NCBI GenBank assembly: GCA_003647765.1 | Contig: QMNM01000115.1 | Coordinates: forward strand, 1 to 5,790 | Direction: 5' to 3' | DNA from: Candidatus Cloacimonadota bacterium | GTDB lineage: Bacteria; Cloacimonadota; Cloacimonadia; JGIOTU-2; B8-G9 | DNA: 5,790 nt | Shown here: in pieces, positions 1,159 through 5,790 of the stretch | Layout: each line of letters begins with the position of its first letter | How positions within the stretch are numbered: position 1 is the stretch's first letter | Made by a program: the position numbers and the translations under genes | The notes under the pieces: generated by a model | What the model was told of the DNA's origin: nothing | The model's database searches: none | The model's input: the letters and a program-made list of their open reading frames with translations, nothing else

Positions 1159-1626
1159 CTAATACATTCTCGATACACGCTTCATAAGCTTTGATCTTAA
1201 TCTATCTTTAATCTTACAAGCATAAGATGAACCGCCTCTCATAGATAATTGAGCAGTTTGATTTTTTCCACAAGTTTTTTGTCTTGCAGCTTTCTTTCTT
1301 CGCTTTGTTTTAACTTCTGGCTTTCTTCTATATTTTCTTTGTTTAATTCTATTTCTAATTCTTTCACCTGCTGGTGATTTTTTGAATGATGCCATTCTTT
1401 TATTTGCTGTATTTGAATGTTGAGTAAGTGTTTTAGCTTCTTCTAACTCTTCATCATCCTCATCTTCCATTTCTTCATCAAGTAGTTCAAACATCTTTGT
1501 GATAATACTCACTTCCTTTGAGTTTAGTTCGTCTTCTTCTAATAAATCAATAAGCATATCTAAGCCATCTGCTATACTCATTTCTCCAAATTCTTCTTCG
1601 CTTTCTAATAAATTACTTAGTCTCAT
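1159..1626 (-). CDS. Acidic/basic bipartite protein, possible prohead core or internal head protein
   Basis: A 155-residue protein of two opposite halves. Residues 1-63 carry 26 Asp/Glu against 3 Lys/Arg and look helical, with leucine-rich segments. Residues 64-155 carry about 32 Lys/Arg against 3 Asp/Glu, including runs such as KTKRRKKAARQK, as expected for nucleic-acid binding. At the junction is LEE-A (residues 61-64), which fits the (L/I)xE-(A/G/S) pattern cut by the T4 prohead protease gp21. This resembles T4 core or internal proteins, whose acidic part is removed during head maturation and whose basic part may stay with the DNA. That function is inferred from composition and this short motif only; a histone-like protein is the alternative. 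The start at 1626 has AAGGG 10 bases upstream and lies behind a late-type promoter, which fits a structural role. Confidence 0.82.
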   Translation of the reverse strand: MRLSNLLESEEEFGEMSIADGLDMLIDLLEEDELNSKEVSIITKMFELLDEEMEDEDDEELEEAKTLTQHSNTANKRMASFKKSPAGERIRNRIKQRKYRRKPEVKTKRRKKAARQKTCGKNQTAQLSMRGGSSYACKIKDRLRSKLMKRVSRMY

Positions 1627-2459: not shown

Positions 2460-2668
2460 CCTATTTCCTTCAATATCTTATCTCTTAAATCATTCCAACC
2501 TTTAAGGTGTGGAACTGAAAACCGTTCATGTTTTTCTGCATCATAATTTCTTGAAGCTTTTTTGTAGTGTGCTATCTCAATATCTACAAGCTGTAATACA
2601 TGTTCGAGTTGTTGTTTGTTCATTTTCAACAACTTAACACCATCTATTTTTAGTTTATGGATATTCAT
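2456..2668 (-). CDS. Small helical protein, unknown function
   Basis: A 70-residue, mostly charged and helical protein that I do not recognise. Residues 12-40 (KLLKMNKQQLEHVLQLVDIE and onward) form a likely amphipathic helix. A second predicted helix at the end (NDLRDKILKEIG) follows the segment FSVPHLKGW. There is no membrane segment or cysteine. Its ATG shares one base with the TAA of the upstream membrane-protein gene (TAATG), and its TGA overlaps the ATG of the next gene (ATGA), so it is the middle member of a tightly coupled operon. Its own ribosome-binding sequence is weak, which fits dependence on translation of the upstream gene. Confidence 0.83.
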   Translation of the reverse strand: MNIHKLKIDGVKLLKMNKQQLEHVLQLVDIEIAHYKKASRNYDAEKHERFSVPHLKGWNDLRDKILKEIG

Positions 2669-3030
2669 TATTTTATCTCACATTTACCAAGATGGAAAGC
2701 AGATGAATCAGTTGAACCTTGTTTAGTCCAATAAATATTCCACCCATTGACCTCATGTTTGTGTACAGTATATGTATTTGCTTCATATATTCTAAACTGA
2801 CCGTTGCCGGATAAACACATCACAGCTGGGTAATCTTTCTTAACTAAATGCTTCGCTAATGCTTTCCCTGAATCTGATGTTAGCCAACCAAATAATGCTC
2901 CGAACATCCATATAAGTAATCCTACAATTAAGGCAGCCATAAAATATGCTCCAATATCTTCGGCATATTTTTTGAACCATTGTTTTGTTCTATTACACCA
3001 CTTCTTATCTTCTTCGCTCTTTATAGTCAT
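2668..3030 (-). CDS. Small single-pass membrane protein with a probable external domain
   Basis: A 120-residue protein with a basic N-terminal tail of about 26 residues (KK, R, KKY), then one strong transmembrane helix at about 27-50 (IGAYFMAALIVGLLIWMFGALF). A polar C-terminal domain of about 70 residues follows. The positive-inside rule puts the N-terminus in the cytoplasm and the C-terminal domain in the periplasm. C72 and C117 could then form a disulfide around a beta-rich segment (QFRIYEANTYTVHKHEVNGWNIYW). There is no lipobox or cleavable signal peptide. AAAGGA sits just before the ATG at 3028-3030, and this is the first gene of the minus-strand operon. An envelope or superinfection-related role is possible, but no family is recognised. 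Confidence 0.85.
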   Translation of the reverse strand: MTIKSEEDKKWCNRTKQWFKKYAEDIGAYFMAALIVGLLIWMFGALFGWLTSDSGKALAKHLVKKDYPAVMCLSGNGQFRIYEANTYTVHKHEVNGWNIYWTKQGSTDSSAFHLGKCEIK

Positions 3031-3685: not shown

Positions 3686-3734
3686 CCTTTCAATAATCAG
3701 GGGCTACCCCTTGATTCTCACACCTTTCGATAAT
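3686..3734 (+). repeat. Direct repeat pair CCTTTCRATAAT
   Basis: CCTTTCAATAAT at 3686-3697 and CCTTTCGATAAT at 3723-3734 match at 11 of 12 bases, or 12 of 13 counting the A before each. The copies start 37 bases apart and flank a stem-loop, just upstream of the late-type promoter of the signalling cassette. They could be a protein-binding site or the trace of a small duplication. Neither is proven. Confidence 0.5.
3695..3716 (+). terminator. Stem-loop after the 181-residue protein gene, terminator-like but without a T-run
   Basis: AATCAGGGG pairs with CCCTTGATT around the loop CTAC, making a nine-pair stem with one G-T wobble. It begins 14 bases after the TAA at 3679-3681. No run of T follows on either strand, so it is not a standard intrinsic terminator. 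It may weaken read-through, protect the 3' end of the message, or contribute to control of the next operon. Confidence 0.4.
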
Positions 3735-3750
3735 AAAAATCATCATTCCT

Positions 3751-3758
3751 TATAAATA
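3751..3758 (+). promoter_or_regulatory. T4-type late promoter (exact consensus) for the signalling cassette
   Basis: TATAAATA matches the T4 late promoter consensus at all eight positions. In T4 this element covers about -13 to -6 and needs no -35, so transcription should begin near 3764. That leaves a leader of about 25 bases to the ATG at 3789. It lies in a gap in front of three closely spaced plus-strand genes and is the only exact match found in the window. Confidence 0.65.
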
Positions 3759-3775
3759 AATAATATAACAAGAAT

Positions 3776-3781
3776 GGGGGG
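3776..3781 (+). promoter_or_regulatory. G-rich ribosome-binding site that decides the next start
   Basis: Six G bases (3776-3781) lie seven bases before the ATG at 3789. The earlier in-frame ATG at 3774 overlaps this run, has no purine-rich site before it, and would leave only about 10 bases of leader from the predicted late transcript start. This favours 3789 as the real start. Confidence 0.5.
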
Positions 3782-3788
3782 TATTATT

Positions 3789-4241
3789 ATGCAGAGATTA
3801 TCAGAAGTAGATAGTTCATTATTAAAATTACGTACTGATTTTAATAAACAATTATCAGCAATTGAAGATGATACTCACTCATTTCATACAGCAATGATTG
3901 ATTTAAGTGCTAGGAACCCAGACAACAAAGAATTAATACAATTTATAGTGTTTGTTAATGATAAATTAGAAACAAAGCATAAAACCCATTCGGAAGTAAT
4001 GATTGAAGCATTCAATGAATTGATTGATGTTAAAAGGTCGTTAATACATGCACTTCAAGAAGTTAAAGATAAAGATGAGCAGGGGTTTTTCAAGAAAATA
4101 TTTAATAGCACAAAGATTTTCGCAGATATAAAAATGACTGTAATTGGTGTAGCTGCGATTGCAATTGCAGTTGTGGTAATGATTTCACCAGATATAGTAT
4201 TATCTGTAATAAAAGCACTTGCAACATTGATTTTAGGATAA
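3789..4241 (+). CDS. Helical protein with C-terminal membrane anchor, first gene of the signalling cassette
   Basis: About 150 residues from the ATG at 3789; starting at 3774 would add five residues (MGGII). Residues 1-95 look wholly helical and charged, with spaced hydrophobics (LSEVDSSLLKLRTDF, NELIDVKRSLIHALQEVKD), suggesting a coiled coil or four-helix bundle. GFFKKIFNSTK at 99-109 resembles an amphipathic segment lying on the membrane. One strong hydrophobic helix follows at about 117-132 (VIGVAAIAIAVVVMI). SPD then breaks it, and a second hydrophobic stretch runs to the end. The protein is probably tail-anchored or hairpin-anchored with its helical part in the cytoplasm. It belongs to no family I recognise. 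It is followed after 11 bases by the receiver-domain gene, so a role as partner, effector or sensor accessory of the two-component pair is likely but inferred. Confidence 0.85.
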   Translation: MQRLSEVDSSLLKLRTDFNKQLSAIEDDTHSFHTAMIDLSARNPDNKELIQFIVFVNDKLETKHKTHSEVMIEAFNELIDVKRSLIHALQEVKDKDEQGFFKKIFNSTKIFADIKMTVIGVAAIAIAVVVMISPDIVLSVIKALATLILG

Positions 4242-4252
4242 AGGAGGATATT

Positions 4253-4942
4253 ATGGGATTTGGTTTTTTTAATATGTTTAATAAAAATGTAGGAGCTGGA
4301 GAAGAACGAACAGCCTCTTCTTTATTTAATTCACCATCGGAAGAAGAAGAAACAACACCTTGTTCTGGAATTTCTGGATGTAAAATATGTTATATTGGTA
4401 AGAACAACACTACACCAATAGATATTGCTCCTAATTGTACCTGGGCACTAGAACTAAAGGATTATGATAGCTCAAAACCATCTATATTGGTAGTCGATGA
4501 TAATCCTGGTATAATTAGTTTTTTGATTGATGATATAGAATCTTTAGATGGTAGTAAAATAAATATAAGTGAATATAATATTTTAACATTTGATACGATT
4601 AATGCTGCATATTATTTTGAAGCCACACAACACAAATATCACGGATTAAATATTAAATATGCCATACTAGACTTAACACTTGGTGGTTCTGTTCCTACTA
4701 ATGACGGACCATCAAAATATACTGGTGTTGATATTTACCAACAAATGTTAATCTACAGTCCAGATGCCAAGGTTTTATTTTACACTGGTAATAACTTAAA
4801 TGAATATATCAAGTCTAATAAAAAGATAATTCAACAATTTAAAGATATTACAAATGGCAAGAAAATTAAAGATTATATTTTATTCAAGACTGCACTTGAT
4901 TTAGAAGGAAGACGAAAATATTTAGGAAACTGGTTTAATTAA
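4253..4942 (+). CDS. Response regulator-like protein: receiver domain with an N-terminal extension
   Basis: A 229-residue protein. From about residue 77 to the end it has every key element of a CheY-like receiver. The acidic pair is D82-D83 in ILVVDDN, the phospho-acceptor is D140 in YAILDLTLGG, the switch threonine is T178 in VLFYTGN, and the conserved lysine is K212 in YILFKTA. It should therefore accept phosphate from a histidine kinase, and one is encoded three bases downstream. The first 75 residues are unusual: a polar, acidic stretch, then Cys37, Cys43, Cys46 and Cys62 (CSGISGCKIC plus one), which could bind metal. No DNA-binding or enzymatic output domain is attached, so it probably acts through protein contacts or as a phosphorelay step. 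AGGAGG at 4242-4247 gives strong translation. Inserts between the core strands make the domain somewhat longer than usual. Confidence 0.92.
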   Translation: MGFGFFNMFNKNVGAGEERTASSLFNSPSEEEETTPCSGISGCKICYIGKNNTTPIDIAPNCTWALELKDYDSSKPSILVVDDNPGIISFLIDDIESLDGSKINISEYNILTFDTINAAYYFEATQHKYHGLNIKYAILDLTLGGSVPTNDGPSKYTGVDIYQQMLIYSPDAKVLFYTGNNLNEYIKSNKKIIQQFKDITNGKKIKDYILFKTALDLEGRRKYLGNWFN

Positions 4943-4945
4943 TAT

Positions 4946-5790
4946 ATGAATTTATTCAAATCTGTAATTATGAGTCATTATAAGAGTATTGTTACTTTTT
5001 TTATAGCAATCAATATCATTATAATGGCTACTTCTGTTGTTGTATACGATAATCAACTAAGATTTATGGAAACAACAGTTAAAACAAATATTGCAGAATA
5101 TGAAGAAGTCGATCGAGAACACTTATGTAAGATTCTTGGGTGTACAATTGTATTTGATTTCGAACACAATAAAAAGTTTATTATGCACAAAAGTAATACA
5201 AGACTGATAAAAACCACATTTAATGAACCTACTATTATTGAATTATGGAGAGATATAGCGACGGTAGATAATAGTATAGCTATATATTTGAAAGAAGCAC
5301 AATCATATTTTCTTCTTTCAAATACAGAATTAATAACACAATTAATGTTTATTTTTACGATTGTAATACCGATTTCATTAGCCATATTTATCTATCCACT
5401 TTTCATTAGTATCCGTAACGAGAAAGAAAATGCTATTAGACAGAATGTAGGTAATGAAGCATTACTTGCCAACAAGTCTATGATTATGATTACTGAAAAC
5501 ATACACCATGAATTGAATACACCATTGGAAATAATTGATAACAAGATTGAGAAGATACATAAAGTCATTGACGATTATCTTGTTGGTGAATATAAGTTCT
5601 TCCAAAAATATAGTAGTTCGATTGATACAAATGGATTGACAAGAGAAGAGTGGGAAAAGATAGAAAAAAGGGGGATTGATGCAAAACTAATAAAACTTAC
5701 TCCAGACTTTGAGTTTATTAGAACTTCATCAGAACAAATCTATAACATATTAGAGAAGATGAAAGGTTTCAAACACATGCGATATAGTAA
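4946..5790 (+). CDS. Membrane sensor histidine kinase, N-terminal part (runs off the window)
   Basis: The first 281 codons are present without a stop. Transmembrane helix 1 is at about residues 14-34 and helix 2 at about 133-156. They enclose a region of about 98 residues, expected to be periplasmic, with Cys61 and Cys66. After helix 2 comes a charged helix (ISIRNEKENAIRQN), then the HisKA H-box ENIHHELNTPLEII, where His188 is the likely phosphorylated residue. A probable second dimerisation helix is SEQIYNILEKMKGFKHMRYS at 262-281. About 60 residues separate the two helices, far more than the short turn in ordinary HisKA domains. The HATPase_c catalytic domain should follow beyond the window. 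The start is three bases after the regulator's stop with only a weak upstream AGGA, so translation is probably coupled. It is the likely kinase for the receiver protein before it. Confidence 0.9.
   Translation, partial: MNLFKSVIMSHYKSIVTFFIAINIIIMATSVVVYDNQLRFMETTVKTNIAEYEEVDREHLCKILGCTIVFDFEHNKKFIMHKSNTRLIKTTFNEPTIIELWRDIATVDNSIAIYLKEAQSYFLLSNTELITQLMFIFTIVIPISLAIFIYPLFISIRNEKENAIRQNVGNEALLANKSMIMITENIHHELNTPLEIIDNKIEKIHKVIDDYLVGEYKFFQKYSSSIDTNGLTREEWEKIEKRGIDAKLIKLTPDFEFIRTSSEQIYNILEKMKGFKHMRYS

Follow-up and report, generated by a model that had tools for sequence, protein, structure and literature searches.

Does the three-gene operon that closes this stretch of DNA belong to a virus, and if so, what would a virus do with a sensor kinase and a receiver of its own? 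The window analyzed here, 5,790 bases long, is an entire contig (C141) belonging to a bacterial MAG of 1.97 Mb in 360 contigs. A first-pass annotation had read its final part as a phage-encoded signaling cassette under a late-type promoter, in which three plus-strand genes separated by gaps of 11 and 3 bases specify a helical protein anchored in the membrane, a receiver whose phosphorylation site is intact, and a sensor kinase with two membrane passes and an HELNTPL H-box. The open reading frames (3774-4241, 4253-4942 and 4946-5788, the last still open at the contig end) and the features of their products described below bear out this description. We refer to the products as HELI, RR and HK, in that order, and to the relatives of the locus by L numbers.

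The DNA around the operon speaks first to the matter of ownership. A second contig of the same MAG, C265, shares 98 identical bases with the left end of the window contig, and because of this overlap we read the two as neighboring pieces of one assembly. The remainder of a DNA methyltransferase lies on C265, where it matches phrog_67 (E 3e-50), together with a helicase gene, whose identity was judged by eye from the sequence. Within the window, an AAA ATPase matches phrog_1250 (2.6e-48), a family that occurs in Bacteroides phages and in T4-like Vibrio phages, and there is a second phage-family match, to phrog_3668 (4.8e-24); no gene of bacterial housekeeping type was seen. Furthermore, when IMG/VR was scanned with the kinase and the receiver, 20 further viral contigs of 10-273 kb emerged, for a total of 21 loci including the window. 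Of 17 records, 8 have the T4-type capsid Gp23 (7 over the cut-off), as against none of 14 control genomes; four of the 17 have a terminase gene, and 11 have one or the other. A gp55-type late sigma (phrog_234) was found only on the L014 and L017 contigs, most of the contigs being fragments.

Searches of cellular genomes gave a complementary picture. Two scans of bacterial and archaeal genomes from 84,980 species did not find the cassette family outside the window's own MAG, and 124 genomes of the window's phylum had no member besides the window itself; these scans, like that of the viral contigs, rely on short peptide patterns and may miss distant relatives. Likewise, tblastn searches of 50,697 catalogued phages, run with three queries from kinases and one from a receiver, yielded no relatives, and no viral contig near-identical to the window was found. 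One could take the locus for a misbinned or freshly host-acquired bacterial operon rather than a phage feature, given that the contig sits in a bacterial bin and that two-component systems are typically bacterial. We consider this highly improbable, as it runs counter to the 20 relatives in viral contigs, many of them with T4-type hallmarks, to the result of the scans of 84,980 species and 124 same-phylum genomes, and to the phage-type neighbors in the window and on C265. The phage origin proposed in the first pass is upheld by these phage-type genes on the overlapping contig and by the presence of relatives in large viral contigs with T4-type hallmarks.

Some other genes of the window deserve mention in their own right. 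Near the cassette, on the minus strand (2668-3030), lies a gene for a protein of 120 residues that combines a single membrane helix with a C-terminal domain; no family was found for it. In addition, several proteins encoded at window positions 1159-1626 and in the flanking genes of L009, L010 and L006 start with M(K/R)xFxxxxxE, which recalls the capsid-targeting sequences of the internal head proteins of T4; TATAAATA, the promoter element discussed below, precedes several of the genes for these proteins.

The membrane helices and H-box of HK (plus strand, 4946..5790, cut by the contig end) identify it as a membrane histidine kinase with two passes, whose periplasmic sensor domain has a C-x4-C motif. 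Its helices span residues 8-26 and 123-141, about 95 residues apart, and the H-box reads ENIHHELNTP, with H188 as the phosphoacceptor. Both helices are present in 16 of the 17 kinases checked, the remaining one having only the second, and H188, E189 and P193 are invariant in 20 of 20 kinases, the window's included; this invariance of the phosphoacceptor and catalytic residues holds although the kinases share as little as 25% identity. The window sequence stops ahead of the ATP-binding domain, and a continuation past the contig end was not found among the contigs of the same MAG. Full-length relatives contain HATPase_c (E 1.2e-13, 2.5e-17 and 1.3e-15), and the N, G1 and G2 motifs can be read in their alignment. 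The earlier claim of a complete kinase-receiver pair is supported by the relatives, which have HATPase_c and invariant catalytic residues; in the window, the HATPase_c of HK itself would lie beyond the contig end. At one locus (L006, 9382-11998) the kinase has no G1 box and the gene for the barrel protein described below is split into two frames. That cassette may be a decaying copy or may contain assembly errors, and some copies of the cassette may be dead.

The partner of this kinase, RR (plus strand, 4253..4942), is identified from AF2 modeling, Foldseek comparison and conserved residues as a receiver-only response regulator with an N-terminal extension of ~70 residues and no output domain. 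Its active site consists of D82/D83, D140, T178 and K212. Across the family D82, D83 and D140 are conserved in 19 of 19 sequences, as is threonine or serine at 178, and K212 is conserved in 18 of 19. The AF2 model, built with 16 relatives, has a mean pLDDT of 80.6, with residues 71-229 mostly above 90, and its top Foldseek matches in the PDB are Spo0F, CheY-like and PorX receivers. When searched with Pfam Response_reg (PF00072), the window RR gives no match and the receiver of L021 gives one of 0.007, under the cut-off. The family is divergent in sequence, though its predicted fold matches that of receivers.

The N-terminus of RR (window 4253-4460 and the same region in relatives) has a short hydrophobic, often cationic start and a TAxxLF motif, with a four-cysteine cluster in some copies. 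We considered sliding-clamp binding through TAxxLF, since motifs that bind the clamp occur in the polymerase and late factors of T4; this is unsupported, the polymerases on these contigs ending in ...DEW without such a motif. Membrane binding by the cationic N-terminus is possible and inconsistent, the amphipathic moment beating 95% of shuffles in 6 of 14 sequences. Separately, in L020 (8174-8978) the kinase is followed by two more receiver-like proteins (PF00072, 2e-9 and 9e-5), the second of which is below the cut-off and may be degenerate.

The first gene of the cassette, HELI, occupies plus-strand positions 3789..4241 (listed as an open reading frame from 3774). Its true start is probably the ATG at 3789 (MQRLSE...), which we prefer because it aligns with the starts of relatives (L005-L007) and has a Shine-Dalgarno sequence ahead of it. 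Alignment and membrane-helix prediction describe a helical protein with one C-terminal membrane anchor, the single membrane helix covering residues 114-132. No family for HELI was found in Pfam, PHROGs or NCBIfam, and the PADLOC defense models gave only a weak partial match (NsnA, E 0.007), which does not place it in a known anti-phage defense system. A four-sequence HMM recognizes HELI out of sample in L013, L014, L016 and L017, and further out-of-sample matches are found in L051, L053 and L054; some of the other HMM E-values in our gene-order survey of the 21 loci are in-sample.

If the cassette belongs to T4-like phages, the next question is when in infection it would be made. The T4-type late promoter element TATAAATA occupies plus-strand positions 3751..3758, ahead of the cassette. 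By itself the motif means little, because its single copy in the window equals the chance expectation (1.05). What lends it weight is position, which the window shares with relatives: 6 of 20 loci have TATAAATA 20-40 bases in front of the leading gene of the cassette, where chance would give 0.225, and none of 5,000 simulations reached 6. The five loci that share this position with the window are L009, L010, L011, L015 and L051. In the L015 phage, 6 of 14 genes, including those for tail fibers, have TATAAATA at -23 to -30; of 7 capsid genes, the 4 gp23-type ones of the L009, L010, L014 and L020 phages carry it at -26 to -37. Because the same element precedes capsid genes of the same phages, the reading of TATAAATA as a late-type promoter in this phage group, already suggested in the first-pass annotation, is now supported. 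The exact element is not at this upstream position in a distant clade (L018-L022), where L021 alone has one, at -103. Between the preceding gene and the cassette, the plus strand can form a hairpin (3695..3716; RNA fold -10.9 kcal/mol, z -2.6), a possible terminator that has no T-run; a terminator scan called none there.

It is informative to examine how the cassette is arranged across its relatives, the same three-gene order having been sought in phage sequences. HELI, RR and HK are contiguous in 15 of the 21 loci: the window, L009, L010, L006, L011, L013, L016, L017, L018, L020, L021, L022, L023, L053 and L054. The six departures are varied, in that the kinase of L014 lies 1 kb further downstream, the L051 contig ends past RR, HELI is not recognized in L015 and L024, RR is missing from L019, and the L012 contig starts inside HK. 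Neighborhoods vary between loci and include ClpX, polymerase, tail, neck and lysis genes; hence the order of the cassette persists in shifting surroundings. In four phages a ClpX with a zinc finger and an AAA domain lies just upstream of the cassette and divergent to it (L009, 7497-8735; L010, 7422-8597; L006, 7039-8217; L011, 5146-6297). Elsewhere, 23 tRNA genes are arrayed downstream of the cassette at the end of the L003 contig (12380-15535), and a DNA polymerase piece in L006 (13095-14258) has an apparent intein-like start (...VHNS before the polymerase part).

In many relatives the cassette exceeds the three genes that the first pass saw. In 9 loci it is followed by the gene for SMALL, a small secreted protein of about 90-135 residues with a signal peptide, and in 7 of those 9 by that for OMP, which is modeled with moderate confidence (mean pLDDT 67.5) as a 16-strand outer-membrane barrel with a signal peptide. 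Foldseek matches of OMP are porins, namely VhChiP (chitoporin), OmpC and MOMP (best E 6.8e-12). The two cysteines of the sensor domain (the C61-C66 pair) are either both present or both absent across the kinases, and SMALL adjoins only kinases that have the pair (9 of 12, versus 0 of 5 without it; Fisher p 0.009, a guide only, as related loci overstate independence). Both SMALL and OMP are absent beside several complete cassettes (L011, L014, L016, L017, L020, L024, L053 and L054).

The porin-like barrel, together with the DUF3373 matches of its distant copies, raises the thought that the whole could be an auxiliary nutrient or transport module, in which a kinase-regulated replacement porin feeds the infected cell or changes its surface permeability. 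However, an RR that has no DNA-binding domain cannot directly regulate porin expression, and the barrel, unlike HELI, is missing from many cassettes; we regard such a module as improbable.

Patterns of sequence change give a further view of which genes belong together. The dN/dS ratios are 0.10-0.29 for HELI, RR and HK and 0.37-0.46 for SMALL and OMP, and evolutionary distances correlate between HK and RR (r 0.85) and between HELI and RR (r 0.81), values reached in none of 5,000 permutations, although these Mantel figures, like the Fisher test above, overstate independence among related loci. Such values indicate that selection keeps the cassette functional, and the faster evolution of SMALL and OMP is as expected of putative surface proteins in an arms race. 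As far as sequences can tell, the cassette is genuine and conserved, a phage two-component system of late type whose output side consists of a receiver alone.

How might it act? We must consider that the phage kinase and receiver rewire host signaling, with RR as a phosphate sink or decoy or with HK driving host regulators, and that the consequence is altered host transcription rather than control of lysis. An RR that has no output domain is like phosphate sinks and like relays of the CheY/Spo0F type, and the two additional receiver-like proteins after the L020 kinase fit as well, but the co-inheritance of HK, RR and HELI is a better fit to an internal circuit than to a decoy, and late promoters come late for reprogramming a host. 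On balance we think host rewiring unlikely, if less so than a porin module. The explanation that we favor, and hold to be probable, is that T4-like phages produce this two-component system in the late phase of infection and use it to monitor the cell envelope.

In this favored explanation, HK would autophosphorylate at H188 by means of an ATP domain encoded beyond the contig end, and the phosphoryl group would pass to D140 of RR, both steps being those expected of the families. SMALL and the barrel would feed the periplasmic Cys-x4-Cys sensor domain of HK; we place SMALL, with OMP, on the input side because SMALL occurs only beside kinases with the Cys pair. Since RR has no DNA-binding domain, its output would have to be a protein contact, and the phosphorylated receiver most likely acts on its inner-membrane operon partner HELI, the likeliest target because it is the most constant partner of RR; a HELI-receiver interaction is thus predicted.

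The most speculative step is the outcome: the phage may use the cassette to time lysis or to respond to superinfection, a purpose that lysis inhibition serves in T4 through other proteins. We offer this role, which the first-pass annotation had raised, tentatively and with rather less than even confidence, on account of holin and endolysin adjacency, late expression, fast-evolving surface proteins, and membrane, secreted and outer-membrane partners. The adjacency, which is the only positional evidence for lysis, comes from one pair of close relatives, L053 and L054, whose kinases have no periplasmic sensor domain. In both, a holin gene (PF11351, 3.5e-12 and 3.2e-14; phrog_3427) lies directly upstream of the cassette on the same strand, with a GH108 endolysin gene beside it on the other strand. 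Among 19 records a GTA-type holin adjoins the cassette only in these two and lies ~95 kb away in the L021 record, and weak spanin-like genes are found near the cassette of L023. Taken furthest, this line of thought leads to signaling across the whole envelope, in which an event at the surface, such as the adsorption of a second phage, would be detected by the barrel and the periplasmic protein and passed on through the kinase and phospho-receiver to the membrane protein, fixing when the cell lyses. That complete circuit is conceivable, though we would not yet favor it; if it is true, it would amount to a phosphorelay version of lysis inhibition.

Bacterial viruses are known to borrow single signaling genes, and in the open-licence papers that we found there is no account of a complete kinase-receiver pair that many phages share and that has not been found in bacterial genomes. 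If the cassette works as proposed, a sensory circuit of viral making would operate in infected cells at a late stage, and the lysis decision and the sensing of competitors in large lytic phages would become testable through mutation of one histidine and one aspartate.

It is also worth placing the cassette beside known systems. Two-component systems of bacteria in which the receiver is a single domain (Spo0F and CheY type) have in common with it a HisKA-like H-box and HATPase_c kinase, and a receiver with the DD, D, T/S and K residues and a CheY/Spo0F-like fold. In contrast to these systems, the cassette resides in large T4-like phages and includes a helical partner with a tail anchor, often joined by SMALL and OMP; its RR in the window escapes Pfam, and its kinase family was not found in the bacterial genomes searched. 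In T4, lysis inhibition through RI, RIII and T links envelope events to lysis timing, and it does so by the binding of antiholin to holin, without a kinase or receiver; the cassette is likened to this module by analogy, no homologue of RI or T having been seen in our family scans. Against the DUF3373 outer-membrane proteins (PF11853; cut-off 26.1), the L018 barrel scores 39.4 bits and the L021 barrel 27.3 bits, whereas the closer OMP copies have no match and the cassette barrel sits in a phage signaling operon. Phages outside the cassette family also carry HATPase or receiver domains (phrog_10912, phrog_5982 and phrog_731), but these matches span only the one domain or the other, in proteins of 970-1,030 residues or in small receivers, and not in a cassette operon. 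Among the open-licence papers that we found on phage-encoded two-component systems, which describe no kinase-receiver system of this kind, the sole relevant case is the agr3 locus of the Clostridioides difficile phage phiCDHM1, which encodes AgrB, AgrD and AgrC and, according to its authors, has no associated response regulator; the authors propose a host origin for these agr genes (PMC3901668). Like the cassette, agr3 is a phage-carried signaling cassette with an HATPase_c sensor kinase (PMC3901668), but the cassette has a receiver as well as a kinase, and both are phage-specific. The anatomy is of a known two-component kind; what is new is that the operon is phage-specific, that its output is a receiver alone paired with a membrane protein, and that secreted and outer-membrane proteins accompany it.
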